Of a DNA stretch of 25,690 nt, positions 20,186-25,690 are shown piece after piece. The notes under the pieces were generated by a model. It searched no databases and was not told where the DNA came from. It saw nothing but the letters and a program-made list of their open reading frames with translations. The DNA comes from a virus. Numbering within the stretch: the stretch's first letter is position 1; the number at the start of each line of letters is the position of its first letter. Made by a program: the position numbers and the translations under genes. The stretch covers positions 1 through 25,690 of the IMG/VR virus record IMGVR_UViG_3300005563_000095. One strand, written 5' to 3'.

Positions 20186-20496
20186 CAGCTATTCGAGATA
20201 ACCGAGAGCTTCATCAGCGCGCCGCGCGGCACACCAAAATATTCCGTCTGGTCAGCCGCCATGCGCCGCGAACTGGTCGTCGCCGCCGTATAGGTGCCGC
20301 TATTGTCAGGCAGCGTGAAATGAATGGAGCAAATCGCGTCCACGTGAACCCGAACAACGCTGCAATTGGGGTCAAAGGCAGTTGACTTGGTTTCGCTGCC
20401 GATCGTGAGCACCTGAGTCCCCAGAGAGGGTTCTTGCGCAATGTCGGAGCCGCTGACGCCCACACCGCCGAACTGAGTAAGGTATAAACTCGCCAT
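20185..20496 (-). CDS. hypothetical virion protein after portal (103 aa)
   Basis: The sequence is beta-rich and soluble: SLYLTQFGGVGVSGSDIAQE, a CSVVRVHVDAICSIHF core, then SRRMAADQTEYFGVPRGALM and a short C-terminus. The pattern of an alternating hydrophobic barrel with a late ADQxEYFGVPxG motif is like small phage structural proteins. No function is assigned. It starts by TAATG overlap with the portal stop and overlaps the zinc-ribbon gene, so it is expressed with the portal. A head completion or decoration role is possible. Confidence 0.55.
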   Translation of the reverse strand: MASLYLTQFGGVGVSGSDIAQEPSLGTQVLTIGSETKSTAFDPNCSVVRVHVDAICSIHFTLPDNSGTYTAATTSSRRMAADQTEYFGVPRGALMKLSVISNS

Positions 20497-22778
20497 TAGT
20501 CTGCCTCTGCCTTCTCAGGCTGTTTCATCTGCTTAATCGTTTGGTCGTGCTTCTCAGCGCCTTGTTCAAGTGCCTGCTCGCCCTGCTCCAACTGCTGGAA
20601 ATGCTTGTCAGCAGTCGTCGCTATATGAACCTGATGCTTGTCATGGGCGTGCACCATGTCCTGCCGATGCTTGTCAATGCCCTTGGCCGACTCGATCTCG
20701 CCCTGTCCCAGCTTCTGCTTGGCGAGCATGAGATTAACCCGCGCCGTCTCGGCATCAGCCTCCGCCTTGTCAGCATCCGCCTTGGCCTTGCGGGCCTTCT
20801 CAACCTCGCCCTGAGACTTGGCCTGCATTTCCTGCAAACCAGCCTGTAGCTGGGCTTGCTGGGCTTGCTGAGCCATTTGCTGCTGTGGATCAGGCTGCGG
20901 AGGCTGACCGCTTTCCTGCTGCTCCTGAGCCTTCTCAGCGGCTATAATCTGGGGTGGCAACGCGGCGTGAAGGCGCTCAGCAAACTTGTCCTTCATCGGC
21001 CATTCCTGGGCCTGCGCAATCAGATCCATGACAAGCGGTGCCGTGTTCGGCAACGCCTGCATGAACTGCATCATGTTGTCGGAAGCCTCTTCACGCTTCG
21101 TGGTGTAGCTGTTGCCGGCCTCCGCAATCACGTCATAGGCGCCGGAGGTCATGTCGTTGAGCATGGCCGGCTGGCCGGTCTGCGGGTCCACGATCGGCAT
21201 TCCAGCCTTATCGCGCTCCTGATTGATCTGCATCAGGTCAATCTTGCCATCCTCGCCCATGATCCTGATGGTGCGCTGGGTATCGTAAACGTGCGGAATG
21301 AGATCGATCAGGATGCGCCCGATCTGCCGGACAGATCGGGCGAAGTTGTCCCGGTAAAGAATGGTCCCGGTATCGCCCTGCTCTTCCCTTTGCCTGATCG
21401 CAACGCCCGAGGTTTCATTCGACTTCGCCCCCAGCGAGGCATCATAGATGCCGATGATGCGCCGCATGTTCTCGTTGGCGAGCTCCAGACCAGTATCAAT
21501 GCCCTGAGAGTTGACCGGAGGCGGAAGCCGCTTGGGCTCGGCATTCCCGTTCTTTGGATCCGGCGTCCAAAGCATATACGGGAAGTTCTTGGTATTCGCC
21601 TGCTCCCACATCTGCTGGTATTTGCCGATGTTGGTTTCAGTCAAAAGCCAAGGAGCCTTGGGCTGCAACGCGACCACCTCGGTATGCGCTGAACAGAAGT
21701 AGTTGAACTGCCGCTGGGCGTCCTTGGCCTCCCGAATGATCCCGCGACGGACCACAATGCGGCCAACCCGGACCTCTTCCCCGACGAACGGAACAATCGG
21801 GATAAAACGGCCCATCCATTCCGAGGATTCCAGCACGTCATTGACCGTCAGAAGATAGCGGCAGATCGAATACGACTCGCGCTTTTCAATCCTGGCCCCA
21901 TTGGCCTTGCACAGCGCCAGCTTCTTTTGAGCCGTCAGCCCGCCATCGAACTCATCGTCTTCCGTGCAGTCAATCGTCTCGCCGGTCTTGGTCAGCGCGA
22001 GAATGAGCGTCTTGGGCTTCTTTACCCAGTACTCGGCTACCCGGATGATTTGATCGGTGCGCCAGTCCGAATAATACTGCCAGTTCTTGACATCCTCGAA
22101 TTCGGCCATGGACGCATCCGGCCAATGCGCCTTGAAGTAGTCGTGGCTGTGATCAACCGGAACAAAGCACCATTGCGCGTCCTCCCGCGTGATGCGCTTG
22201 GCGTCCGGGTCCCACAGAACGGAAACCTGGTCGTCTACCCCGTCGATCCGGATTTCCTGCTCAAAGGTCGTGTCGTCAGCGTATTCGGTCGTTATCCGGG
22301 CGTGGCCGATACCACACGCGACCTGGCTGTCTGCGGCCTTGAAGTAGATGCCCGTGGCGTCCGAGCGGTTCTCGATGTATCGGATCATGCCCTCGCGGAG
22401 GTCGGCAAGCTTCGGATCGGCCTGATCATCAACCCCGACAACCCTGATCGCGGGCCGCATCTTCCTGATGTCGCCTGTGACCTGATGCACGAACTGCGGC
22501 ATCTGGTTGTTCGTCAGGACAGGCCGGGATTCCGCCTCTCGCGTTGCCTTCACATCGGCCGGCCATTGATTGCCCGCCATGAAGTCGAGATCTTCATATG
22601 CAAGCCGGATGTTGTTCCGCTCGTGCTCCATGGCGCGAGTCCAGCGCTCACGGGCAAGCTTTAGAATGGCGTCCTTTTCGTCTTTGGATAGCTTGAGAGG
22701 TTCGCCGAGCTGGTCGTTGCTGGGAATGTTCTGGGACGCTTCGTCCTGTCCCTTTTCCGCAGCGTAATCCTCAGCCAT
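20496..22778 (-). CDS. portal protein, P22-like
   Basis: The protein has 760 residues (P22 gp1: 725). The N-terminal WTRAMEHERNNIRLAYEDLD followed by FMAGNQWP, a mid-region GIGHARITTEYADDTTFEQE, and IYDASLGAKSNETSGVAIRQ are characteristic portal blocks. The last 120 residues are a Gln/Lys/Glu-rich coiled coil (from about 640: QQMAQQAQQAQLQAGLQEMQ), comparable to the long C-terminal barrel of P22 portals. The dodecamer forms the DNA channel, docks the terminase and later the gp4-like ring. It follows the large terminase through a coupled 30-aa gene. Confidence 0.85.
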   Translation of the reverse strand: MAEDYAAEKGQDEASQNIPSNDQLGEPLKLSKDEKDAILKLARERWTRAMEHERNNIRLAYEDLDFMAGNQWPADVKATREAESRPVLTNNQMPQFVHQVTGDIRKMRPAIRVVGVDDQADPKLADLREGMIRYIENRSDATGIYFKAADSQVACGIGHARITTEYADDTTFEQEIRIDGVDDQVSVLWDPDAKRITREDAQWCFVPVDHSHDYFKAHWPDASMAEFEDVKNWQYYSDWRTDQIIRVAEYWVKKPKTLILALTKTGETIDCTEDDEFDGGLTAQKKLALCKANGARIEKRESYSICRYLLTVNDVLESSEWMGRFIPIVPFVGEEVRVGRIVVRRGIIREAKDAQRQFNYFCSAHTEVVALQPKAPWLLTETNIGKYQQMWEQANTKNFPYMLWTPDPKNGNAEPKRLPPPVNSQGIDTGLELANENMRRIIGIYDASLGAKSNETSGVAIRQREEQGDTGTILYRDNFARSVRQIGRILIDLIPHVYDTQRTIRIMGEDGKIDLMQINQERDKAGMPIVDPQTGQPAMLNDMTSGAYDVIAEAGNSYTTKREEASDNMMQFMQALPNTAPLVMDLIAQAQEWPMKDKFAERLHAALPPQIIAAEKAQEQQESGQPPQPDPQQQMAQQAQQAQLQAGLQEMQAKSQGEVEKARKAKADADKAEADAETARVNLMLAKQKLGQGEIESAKGIDKHRQDMVHAHDKHQVHIATTADKHFQQLEQGEQALEQGAEKHDQTIKQMKQPEKAEAD

Positions 22779-22863
22779 GCGCGAGCTTCAAGCAGCCGTA
22801 GATCAAGAGAAGCGTTCCAATCATGATGAGGAAAATACCGGAGTGGTAGTCGTCAAAGTTCAT
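22771..22863 (-). CDS. 30-aa membrane peptide between terminase and portal
   Basis: The frame starts in an ATGA overlap with the large terminase stop and its own end overlaps the portal ATG by 8 nt (ATGGCTGA), so both sides are translationally coupled. The peptide is a short polar start (MNFDDYHSG), one hydrophobic helix (IFLIMIGTLLLIYGCLKLA) and HG. No other use of this 81-nt space is visible. A helper for membrane-associated packaging or simply a coupling cistron are the main possibilities. Confidence 0.6.
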   Translation of the reverse strand: MNFDDYHSGIFLIMIGTLLLIYGCLKLAHG

Positions 22864-24416
22864 GCCCCTTGCCAGCCCGCACCACGCGCAAAGGAGAACT
22901 TCGGCGAATGGTCGATCACCTCGGCCACGGGCTCTGCGAACGTCAAGGCAATCGCATCCCAGTCATCCGGAGATCGCACACCCCGCGCTCTCATATGCTC
23001 TTTGCTTTCCAATAGAAGCCGCTGGTTTACGTCATACGAATAGGCGGGACCGCAGGCATCGGCTTGCAAACTGTCCAGATCGGGAATGTCCGCGCCGCCT
23101 GGCTCGTCAAGCCAATCCCGCGACCGCAACCACATTTCAGCCCGCCTGTTGCGAGGTCCGGCCGCTTTTGTCCCGTCAGGAAGCAGAATGACTGGCTCTT
23201 GTGGCTCTGAACCGAAATTGATCGGCGTGACTAGCTCAAGGTAAACGCCGCCCCAGCTATGAAGGATATCAACCACTCCTCCACCGACCCCGCCGACATC
23301 CACAAAAACCCGTGCAGGCCTGTCATGGTCTATGATCTGCTTGACCCAGTTGGCGCCGGCGACTGTATCGATCTTGGTTTTGCTCTCGATCTTGGAGACC
23401 TTGCGCCCCTTGCGCCAAGCGATGGAAAAGCGATCGTCTCCAAAGCGTGCCGGATCGACGCCAAGAACGAGGGGTCCGATTCCTTCGCAATCTCGCTTAC
23501 GAGCTCCAAGAACCTTGTCTGACCTAATGAAGCTATCGTGGCCCGTAAGCTGAAAGGCTTCGTCAGCAGTCGCCGGATATTCCTGTTTGAAGAGCAAAGT
23601 ATCTTTGAGTTCGGCAATCTTGGCTCGTCGCCAAGCCATTTGTCCGTCAGTGAGCTTGTGGGCGTCTGCATATTCCTGCTCTTCATCGTCTAGCCGAAAT
23701 CCCGCTGGTACTTCGCGCTGATATCCGCTGTCCCAAAACCACGGGATGAATATCGCCTCGTAGTCGCCGATTCCGGCTTCCGCCTGCTGCCAACGCTCAT
23801 GAAACTCGCCGCCGACGCCGTTGGCCGTGCTCTCTAGAACCACCTCGGTTCCGGGCAGGTCAGGGATTGCTTGAACAACACCCGCGAAATGAGTTTTAGC
23901 ATTGGGCCAGAAAGCAACCTCTGAGCCATGGAAGAGCTGTACCGTCTGCGAGCGACCAACCGCCTTGGCTCCCGCCGTTCCGACAGCATACCCACTCTCA
24001 AGGGCTGCAAAGCTTAGCTCTTTGGCGTTGGCGGCGCCGGTCGTAGGACGAACGAGGTCAGGGCAATGAGAATGGTAGCGGTCAACCATGCCAAAAAGAT
24101 TGTTGGTGGCATCTTGCTCATGGGTGAGAATGAACACCCTAACACCACGACTATGAGTGGCCCGCCAATAATAGCGGCCGCCGATATAAGTCGATATACC
24201 CTGCTGTCTTCCCTTGAGGACAAGCGCCCGAACCTTTCCCACTCGCTCTCGTTGAGCTTCTAAGCGGCCATGCAAATAGATTTGAGCCTGATTGAGAACC
24301 AGCGGCTCGATCTGGCCCGCCTTGGTTCTGATCCTCAGGCATTTACTGGCATAGTGAGCGAAGTCGTCCCGAAGGCGTTGCCTTATTGACCGCTCCCGGT
24401 CATTCAAGCTCGTCAA
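22860..24416 (-). CDS. terL: terminase large subunit
   Basis: With start TTG 24416 the protein has 518 residues. The N-terminal ATPase shows a Walker A-like loop, KGRQQGISTY (about 68-77), a motif B-like FHGSEVAFW (162-170) and the coupling motif STANG (196-200). The C-terminal nuclease shows GVDPARFGDD (D321), FVDVGGVGGGV (D373) and a late WDAIALTFAEP. It translocates and cuts concatemeric DNA at the portal. The TTG overlaps the small terminase stop by 17 nt and has GAGG upstream; an ATG at 24524 would give a 125-nt overlap with an implausible Arg-rich extension. Confidence 0.85.
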   Translation of the reverse strand: MTSLNDRERSIRQRLRDDFAHYASKCLRIRTKAGQIEPLVLNQAQIYLHGRLEAQRERVGKVRALVLKGRQQGISTYIGGRYYWRATHSRGVRVFILTHEQDATNNLFGMVDRYHSHCPDLVRPTTGAANAKELSFAALESGYAVGTAGAKAVGRSQTVQLFHGSEVAFWPNAKTHFAGVVQAIPDLPGTEVVLESTANGVGGEFHERWQQAEAGIGDYEAIFIPWFWDSGYQREVPAGFRLDDEEQEYADAHKLTDGQMAWRRAKIAELKDTLLFKQEYPATADEAFQLTGHDSFIRSDKVLGARKRDCEGIGPLVLGVDPARFGDDRFSIAWRKGRKVSKIESKTKIDTVAGANWVKQIIDHDRPARVFVDVGGVGGGVVDILHSWGGVYLELVTPINFGSEPQEPVILLPDGTKAAGPRNRRAEMWLRSRDWLDEPGGADIPDLDSLQADACGPAYSYDVNQRLLLESKEHMRARGVRSPDDWDAIALTFAEPVAEVIDHSPKFSFARGAGWQGA

Positions 24417-24678
24417 GAGCGTCCTCGTGCGAGATCGCCAGACCGCCGCTGACTTCAGTCGTTTGATGCGGCTTTCCATCAACTCGATCGTTGATTTCCT
24501 TGATGGCCGGAACATCGCCCTCAATGGCTTTATCGACCAACTTGCGAGCGATCTGGCGCAGCTTCTTGGTCATCGTTCCGTCCGCGTCCTGTGCTTCCTG
24601 ATGAAGTTCCAAGATCAGCGCGTCCCGCATTAACTTGTCGGGCTTGCCGCCTTTGGACGGCGTGTTTCGCGCCGCCAT
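24400..24678 (-). CDS. putative terminase small subunit (92 aa, DUF5681-like)
   Basis: The protein is small and charged: KGGKPDKLMRDALILELHQE, KKLRQIARKLVDKAIEGDVP, then AIKEINDRVDGKPHQTTEVS and an acidic end. The DKAIEGDVPAIKEI-RVDGKP block recurs in a family (DUF5681-like) encoded just before phage large terminases, where a small subunit recognises the packaging site. No helix-turn-helix can be proven by eye. A TTAGGAGC ribosome site precedes the ATG, and the 3' end overlaps the large terminase. The name rests mostly on position. Confidence 0.6.
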   Translation of the reverse strand: MAARNTPSKGGKPDKLMRDALILELHQEAQDADGTMTKKLRQIARKLVDKAIEGDVPAIKEINDRVDGKPHQTTEVSGGLAISHEDALDELE

Positions 24679-24706
24679 GTTTAGCTCCTAAGTTTTTGAA
24701 ATAAAA

Positions 24707-24904
24707 TTACTTGCCCGTCATCAGCTTAGCGCGAGCCTTGCGGGCGATCTCCTGCTTTGCAGCAGGAGATAATCCCTTGGCGCGTGGAAGATCAGATAGC
24801 GCTGCTCTCGCGTGGTTCTTATCAGGCAGAGGAAAGCTCCGTCCCGGGCCAGCGAAGTCCTTGCTTGGCAATTTGGCTCGCGCCTTGGCTGTCAGTTTGC
24901 TCAT
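24707..24904 (-). CDS. small Lys/Ala-rich phage protein, intact paralogue (65 aa)
   Basis: The protein opens MSKLTAKARAKLPSKDFAGP then GRSFPLPDKNHARAAL and ends with a basic helix (AAKQEIARKARAKLMTGK). The PSKDFAGPGRSFPLPDxxHARAAL block is common in small phage proteins of unknown function. Its first 18 residues match the truncated copy at 25338-25397 at 15 of 18 positions. The endonuclease gene's 3' end covers its first 83 nt in another frame. AGGAAG upstream of the ATG serves as ribosome site. Confidence 0.65.
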   Translation of the reverse strand: MSKLTAKARAKLPSKDFAGPGRSFPLPDKNHARAALSDLPRAKGLSPAAKQEIARKARAKLMTGK

Positions 24905-25337
24905 TTCTTCCTGGCTCCAGATAGCTCGCCAAGACCCGAAGCAGTGATGGCGAATCTTTTACGTGGCCCAAGACTTTGTTGCACCTATCGCAAATCCATC
25001 CTCGAAACATGCCGCTCGCATGACAATGATCGAAAACAACTTTACCTTCGGTGCAGCATATCTCGCAAAAAGGCGAACGAGGGCGGCCAGCCTCCATTTC
25101 TCTTTTTTGGGCGTAGCTAATTTGTTGTCTCTTTTTTGACTTAGTATACATCTCGGGTTGGTCTTCACGTCTGCGCTTATGTGCTTCAGCATCTTTTTTG
25201 CGAACGCGCTCTAAATGAAGCTCTCTAAACTTAAGCGTAGCCCTTTTAAGAACTTCAGGGTTCTTTACTTCGCGGGCTCGCAAAACAGCGTTTCGACCCG
25301 GATTCCTGCGCCTCCATTCAGTAGTTTTACTGACCAT
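24822..25337 (-). CDS. recombination endonuclease VII-type HNH nuclease
   Basis: The 171-residue protein has an Endonuclease VII domain: zinc pair C91-x2-C94, catalytic FDHCH (D103, H104), zinc pair C116-x2-C119 and N120. All expected zinc and catalytic residues are present. Residues 1-88 are highly basic with a repeating NPE-type pattern, likely DNA contact. Related proteins resolve branched DNA (T4 gp49) or act as free-standing homing endonucleases. The gene starts directly after the stop of a truncated gene and ends inside the intact copy of that gene. Its GC (about 43-47% over 25081-25260, hand count) is well below the roughly 62% next to it, indicating a mobile origin. Confidence 0.8.
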   Translation of the reverse strand: MVSKTTEWRRRNPGRNAVLRAREVKNPEVLKRATLKFRELHLERVRKKDAEAHKRRREDQPEMYTKSKKRQQISYAQKREMEAGRPRSPFCEICCTEGKVVFDHCHASGMFRGWICDRCNKVLGHVKDSPSLLRVLASYLEPGRNEQTDSQGASQIAKQGLRWPGTELSSA

Positions 25338-25397
25338 TTAGGCAGCGAAATCCTTGCTGGGGATCTTGGAGCGGGCTTTAGCTGTGAGCTTGGTCAT
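25338..25397 (-). pseudogene. truncated copy of the 65-aa gene (19 codons)
   Basis: From ATG 25397, overlapping the upstream stop as ATGA, the frame reads MTKLTAKARSKIPSKDFAA and stops. It matches the N-terminus of the 65-aa protein at 24707-24904 at 15 of 18 residues, while about 13 of 54 bases differ, mostly at third positions. The stop is directly followed by the endonuclease ATG. The peptide may still be translated; the gene is probably a remnant cut by endonuclease-gene insertion. Confidence 0.65.
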
Positions 25398-25630
25398 GCG
25401 GGCGGATCGTTACTGAGGATGTCAATTGCGGATTTGAGGCCATCGAGTTCGCCCTTAACGGCCGCAATAGCTTCCTGATGCGGTGCAAGAGCGGCAGCAC
25501 GCTTGGCGTCTAGCTCAGCCTTCTCGGCACTAAGGCCATCAAGATCAGCTTCAAACGCCTTCATGGCATCTGGCGCAATATTGCGAGCCGCCAAAGCCTT
25601 GGCTTTGAGCCGTTCGATCATGCTGCTCAT
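25394..25630 (-). CDS. small coiled-coil protein (78 aa)
   Basis: The sequence is a charged helix: MIERLKAKALAARNIAPDAM, then KAFEADLDGLSAEKAELDAK with a clear Leu/Ala heptad, a hinge PHQ, and a second helix GELDGLKSAIDIL ending DPPA. It resembles small phage coiled-coil proteins near terminase genes; function unknown. The ATG at 25630 has GGAAG 5 nt upstream, but the same frame stays open to the window edge (PQIEVHKEITGRK), so the true start may be further right. Its stop overlaps the truncated gene's ATG. Confidence 0.55.
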   Translation of the reverse strand: MSSMIERLKAKALAARNIAPDAMKAFEADLDGLSAEKAELDAKRAAALAPHQEAIAAVKGELDGLKSAIDILSNDPPA

Positions 25631-25690
25631 TTTTCTTCCAGTGATTTCCTTGTGGACTTCGATTTGTGGCGTTGGATCGCTGATCGCCGC
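25627..25690 (-). CDS. window-edge fragment, reading uncertain
   Basis: One frame ends QRHKSKSTRKSLEEK and TGA in an ATGA overlap with the coiled-coil gene start, the junction style used throughout, which suggests the 3' end of another gene. The competing reading is an in-frame extension of the coiled-coil gene itself. Only about 20 codons are visible, so I cannot decide. Confidence 0.25.
   Translation of the reverse strand, partial: RRSAIQRHKSKSTRKSLEEK

Follow-up and report, generated by a model that had tools for sequence, protein, structure and literature searches.

A phage EndoVII-type nuclease gene as a candidate homing element carrying a spare front half of its target gene

We describe a phage nuclease gene set between two copies of a small gene, one truncated and one intact. 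It is very probably a free-standing homing element of the EndoVII type (DHHRN), directed at the 5' half of the small gene and equipped with a diverged spare of that half. The sequences of relatives show what appears to be a recurrent mobile element in phages, one copy of which lies in the window (the whole stretch of DNA analyzed, a 25,690-base IMG/VR record). We also lean, with less assurance, towards a widespread phage cleave-and-rescue cassette that combines the nuclease with a ribosome-binding site in the final nuclease codons and with a spare front half of the cut gene that resists cleavage. If this is true, a cleave-and-rescue element spreads without destroying its target and leaves foreign/resident chimeras of the target gene as it moves.

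On the minus strand, the window carries in this order an upstream gene, the 19-codon truncated copy, the 171-aa nuclease gene, the intact 65-aa gene, a gene at the small-terminase position, TerL, and a P22-type portal (Table 1). The truncated copy, whose ATG shares bases with the upstream stop codon (ATGA), agrees with the 65-aa gene at 15 of 18 residues, as previously noted, and at 41 of 54 nucleotides and 8 of 18 third positions. Together, the two copies form a 55-nt direct repeat of 76% identity with a spacing of 493 nt, and the 65-aa protein used as query matches the truncated copy at E 1.4e-5, i.e., above chance. The nuclease fills the gap between the copies just as the preliminary description had it, with its ATG (25337) starting at the base right after the TAA of the truncated copy (25340-25338) and its stop (24822) falling 83 nt within the intact gene. 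The drop in GC content reported there (about 45% against 62%) is real, but about half as large: the nuclease gene has 49.6% GC (47.8% for the part outside the small-gene overlap) and the neighboring genes 54.5 to 57.6%. A second IMG/VR contig, IMGVR_UViG_3300025949_000063 (34.9 kb), has the same arrangement and encodes proteins identical to those of the window, and a DNA search of isolate phages using the window region gave no match. No terminator was found around the window element. As no sigma-70-like promoter was found there either and no -10-like box precedes the nuclease, the latter is probably read from the phage operon.

Table 1. Coordinates of the features at the nuclease locus of the window
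Feature	Position	Strand	Remarks
Upstream gene, open at the window edge	25394..25690	-	~215-aa frame in sibling contig; stop overlaps start of truncated copy
Truncated 5' copy (candidate remnant) of the resident small gene	25338..25397	-	MTKLTAKARSKIPSKDFAA*; 19 codons
EndoVII-type (DHHRN) putative homing endonuclease, 171 aa	24822..25337	-	PF02945, 4e-16
Putative Shine-Dalgarno segment of the small gene	24905..24920	-	Nuclease L-E(-P-G-R) codons: CTGGAGCCAGGAAGAA, then ATG
Intact small gene, 65 aa	24707..24904	-	Starts MSKLTAKARAKLPSKDFAGPG...; PHROG 16160, 6.5e-11; DUF6582-like
Downstream gene, small-terminase position	24400..24678	-	After small gene
TerL	22860-24524	-	
P22-type portal	20496-22778	-	

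Residues 73-141 of the 171-aa nuclease match PF02945 (EndoVII; E 4e-16), and the protein further matches PHROG 2633/2914, endonuclease VII. Both matches would suit a phage Holliday-junction resolvase (EndoVII proper) that came to lie here by chance gene shuffling. We regard this as extremely unlikely: the catalytic domain lies at the C-terminus, like that of F-CphI, and not at the N-terminus, like that of T4 EndoVII; the closest solved relative, by sequence and by fold, is the site-specific enzyme Hpy99I; and such genes are recurrently placed on one target gene, with varying N-terminal extensions. The catalytic D-H-H-R-N residues and the two CxxC zinc pairs of the F-CphI/EndoVII homing family (residues defined in PMC6083498) are all present, the pattern CxxC...DHCH...R...CxxCN being invariant in alignment A4 (D103, H104, H106, R112, and N120 plus C91/C94/C116/C119). 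The last ~30 aa, beyond the catalytic domain, include the overprint of the 5' end of the small gene, and pLDDT is under 50 for residues 143-171 in the predicted structure. A group I intron around the nuclease was rejected, since Rfam searches gave no match at E<=1 in positions 23900-25690 of the window and none at gathering scores in six relatives. Two other kinds of N-terminal zinc-finger-like extension are joined to the same C-terminal core in L063, L066, L068, and L317 and in L036, L081, L096, and L074-L076, and the DNA-binding end thus looks modular.

The small protein belongs to PHROG 16160, a family without assigned function; related small proteins approach DUF6582 yet stay below its curated cut-off, and a fold search with the small protein gave nothing significant. 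The motif LPxxxFAxPxxRxYP...A of the small gene matches residues 281-310 of the crAss001 cargo protein gp45 (PDB 7qog; profile E 8e-5), a hint that the family may serve as virion cargo or in ejection. Most of the sampled family members have no nuclease, and wherever the nuclease is absent, the small gene is single copy.

In the EndoVII clade of the window, known from metagenomic phage contigs, the nuclease gene nearly always stands directly before a member of the small-gene family, while those of other EndoVII subclades (most of L082-L120) have no small gene next to them; the association is therefore limited to one clade. Among 235 distinct small genes collected by pattern scans, 36 have the nuclease directly upstream, and L057, assigned by hand to the nuclease group since its nuclease is inverted, brings to 37 the distinct viral loci where a clade nuclease lies against the small-gene family; the intact gene follows the nuclease in 36 of the 37. 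The nuclease ends in Y-L-E in 31 of 36 cases, and its Leu-Glu codons supply a Shine-Dalgarno sequence to the small gene. The Glu codon concerned is GAG in 30 of the 31, against a background of 116 of 374 in the rest of these genes (p 1e-13). It stands 7 nt before the small-gene start in 27 of the 31 and 10 nt from it in 3, the latter being the spacing of the window. Codon choice and spacing thus provide strong sequence evidence that the nuclease end doubles as the ribosome-binding site of the small gene. A different EndoVII clade lies directly 3' of the small gene in L213 (4344-4991, reverse strand coordinates) and in L311; between L213 and L048, the flanks have 89 to 90% DNA identity and homology restarts exactly after that EndoVII gene. 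This clade seems to target the same small gene from the other side.

Remnants of the small gene, all of its 5' end, lie against the nuclease or a short way upstream of it in the window, L026/L043, L038/L078, L045, L047, L060, L063, L317, and L057 (with its inverted nuclease), that is, at 9 of 37 nuclease loci and at none of the ~180 loci that lack the nuclease and extend 600 nt or more upstream (Fisher test 4e-8, computed as 9/36 versus 0/180; an automated match inside the L064 nuclease was removed by hand). A truncated and an intact copy side by side without a nuclease, which the preliminary description named as the finding that would speak against insertion, were therefore met at none of these loci. 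The same counts bear on the idea, also put forward there, that the two copies were old paralogues, and on its stronger form, in which two small genes stood in tandem as old paralogues until the nuclease slipped between or upstream of them, the gene not being its target. The window copies do differ at 10 of 18 third positions, as old paralogues might; however, a second 5' copy is seen only beside nucleases, empty sites hold a single gene, and we consider such a history very unlikely. The breaks of the remnants range from codon 12 to codon 31, and those of L043, L045, and L063 nearly coincide, immediately ahead of the conserved His-Ala. In L038/L078, the nuclease is shortened at its 5' end and meets the remnant across letters common to both (about CCAAGCAAGCGG), a junction of the sort that microhomology joining would leave. 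In L057, the inverted nuclease (2473-2978) lies between the truncated and the intact copies, which suggests that insertion can happen in either orientation. Relics of the nuclease 3' end were looked for upstream of nuclease-free small genes, and none was found.

Pairs of occupied and empty relatives point to homing into the small gene. L348 is a nuclease-free near-twin of L081: their upstream flanks, 97.3% identical, cease to match at the start codon, and identity restarts at codon 32 and continues at 92%. In the small gene itself, codons 1-31 match at 48 of 93 nt and the last 42 codons, from codon 32 to the end, at 125 of 126 (Fisher 2e-19 for the contrast between the two parts). Likewise, L030 has a nuclease-free twin in L322, the two being 99.4% identical across 3.7 kb as far as codon 2. 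Here the small gene is mostly different (84% from about codon 15 onwards), which points to a longer exchange tract. In comparisons of L317 with L279/L298/L328, of L060 with L137, and of L063 with L307, upstream homology enters the remnant and restarts in the intact copy at about nt 90-103, or already near nt 49 for L317 versus L298. The nuclease is thus present or absent at the target among close relatives (L081/L348, L030/L322, L317/L279). Across the collection, when pairs are matched for 3'-half identity, 5' halves are less similar in nuclease-linked/free than in free/free pairs in every bin (p 0.003-0.006); in the top bin (3' identity 0.82 or more), 5'-half identity is 0.525 for linked/free and 0.948 for free/free pairs. 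As occupied and empty members of such pairs differ in the 5' part and match in the 3' part, the intact gene, where an empty relative exists, is to all appearance of its sequence a foreign front half on a resident back half. Over deep time, the 5' half was not favored over the 3' half in a Mantel co-travel test (r 0.31 and 0.48, respectively, against nuclease distances), and co-travel of the 5' half alone is therefore visible only in recent pairs.

Altogether, these pairs and the repeated order of truncated copy, nuclease, and intact copy bear out the earlier proposal that a homing endonuclease entered the small gene and that an intact copy was kept or recreated, except that the gene had not been a repeated one beforehand. 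The further proposal that the intact copy came from the allele of another phage holds in relatives for the front half only, the back half being resident. We also weigh a functional two-gene cassette, in which the small gene would be, e.g., a partner or an inhibitor of the nuclease and both would have moved as a unit beside an older copy. Such a cassette would account for two genes that adjoin and are translationally coupled in all close relatives, and for the many linked loci without a remnant. Nevertheless, the nuclease is absent from most sampled members of the small-gene family, and recent insertions brought in only a foreign 5' half, needless for a partner gene, in front of a resident 3' half; we therefore hold this explanation to be unlikely.

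Near the insertion codon, 17 of 36 nuclease-linked genes have residues other than the standard D..H, compared with 14 of 108 nuclease-free genes (p 8e-5), the latter having been sampled regardless of site residues; the first pattern scan, conditioned on these residues, was excluded from the site statistics. The form D-T-x-x-R-A is found in 12 of 37 linked and 2 of 96 free genes (p 3e-6), and the two nuclease-free genes with DT..RA show no nuclease relic. L081 thus reads PVDTRGRAAN where the empty L348 reads PVPDKSHAAN, and we infer from such differences that altered site residues may prevent cutting of the donor half. The intact copy of the window retains the standard site PDKNHA, and resistance would therefore need DNA-level differences or another cutting position. 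Many relatives from AT-rich phages show, ahead of the nuclease, a -10-like box (TGATATAAT or TGATATGAT in many cases) and then a short hairpin over its ribosome-binding site or start; the stems vary in sequence (z-scores against dinucleotide shuffles of -0.8 to -4.5 in 14 leaders), and the hairpins resemble those that hide the ribosome-binding sites of T4 homing endonucleases (PMC2988022). In L041-L056, a vestige of YPMPDKS codons often persists next to the -10-like box upstream of the nuclease even where a full remnant is missing; by analogy with I-TevI, it could be an operator resembling the target site.

The history of the window insertion itself is read partly by analogy with these relatives. 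None of 79 TerL relatives (67 to 86% identity) has the nuclease, and L372 (TerL 81%) is a related phage of the kind that the preliminary description had looked forward to, with one intact gene at the site and no nuclease. Its small-gene start overlaps the upstream stop (CAATGAGG) in the same way as the truncated copy of the window does (GCATGACC), which fits the truncated copy being the original start of the resident gene. L372 is too distant for mapping the right-hand junction of the window and is not the closest to its 3' half. Speaking against homing as in relatives, the left break of the window is at codon 19 and not at ~31, the standard site is retained, and the extended -10/hairpin leader of many relatives is absent. 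We propose that the window contains one old or divergent instance of the element and that its intact small gene, as in relatives, would join a 5' part brought by the element to the 3' part of the resident gene.

We propose a model of homing based on the following: (i) the nuclease would cut resident alleles near codons 30-31; (ii) repair from the donor phage would bring in the nuclease together with donor codons 1 to ~31 and join the resident 3' half in frame, forming chimeras such as those that the empty-site pairs reveal in relatives; (iii) the displaced resident 5' end would persist upstream in the form of a remnant whose length varies (19 codons in the window), a pattern seen repeatedly beside the nuclease; (iv) the new gene would be translated from the Shine-Dalgarno sequence within the last nuclease codons, for which the sequence evidence is strong; and (v) the different sequence of the donor half at the insertion codon should shield it against further cutting. 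The occupied/empty pairs L081/L348 and L030/L322 make the cutting site and self-resistance directly testable. Moreover, such an element accounts for the mosaicism seen among alleles of this common small gene of phages, and for the odd pairing of truncated with intact copies near EndoVII genes.

No paper on such a phage element was found in the open-access literature, subscription journals being mostly outside the search; among the papers searched, this is apparently the first phage homing endonuclease repairing the invaded gene with a diverged replacement half. Free-standing HEGs of the T4 type split genes, as mobE does in nrdA and mobA in gene 60, and hairpin regulation at the ribosome-binding site is known for I-TevI, segB, and mobE (PMC2988022). 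The element shares with them a nuclease gene within a protein gene and, in several relatives, a -10-like box with a hairpin hiding the ribosome-binding site; the split halves of T4-like phages act as two polypeptides, whereas here a duplicated front half re-makes an intact gene. The ShiLan domain, described as an out-of-frame HNH insertion element that is read through in frame within its host protein (PMC11855218), likewise involves a homing nuclease inside a phage gene and an overlapping reading frame, but no duplicated gene half figures in its abstract.

The closest characterized enzyme is F-CphI of cyanophage S-PM2, where an intron in the neighboring psbA shields the genome that encodes the enzyme, in what is called collaborative homing (PMC6083498). 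Both are free-standing phage nucleases with the EndoVII motif and a C-terminal catalytic domain, adjoining their target gene; in contrast to F-CphI, no intron was detected here, and protection would come from the diverged 5' half. The closest precedent in logic is provided by fungal mitochondrial endonuclease ORFs with a replacement C-terminus (mORFs), as in atp6 of Allomyces macrogynus and in atp6, atp9, cox2, and nad3 of Glomus sp. (PMC3630166). In both cases, an endonuclease ORF lies between a diverged inserted terminus that is used and a displaced native terminus, and empty relatives match the native one. A diverged duplicate terminus fused in frame, together with a native remnant, is found in relatives of the phage element, and the window has the remnant. 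The mORFs replace the 3' end (C-terminus) of mitochondrial genes and encode LAGLIDADG or GIY-YIG enzymes, whereas the phage element replaces the 5' end with an EndoVII-type enzyme whose own codons give the ribosome-binding site. As it is the N-terminal half that is replaced, the phage element works like the mORF type and is not a member of it; it would mirror what is seen in fungal mitochondria and be a natural counterpart of engineered cleave-and-rescue drives.
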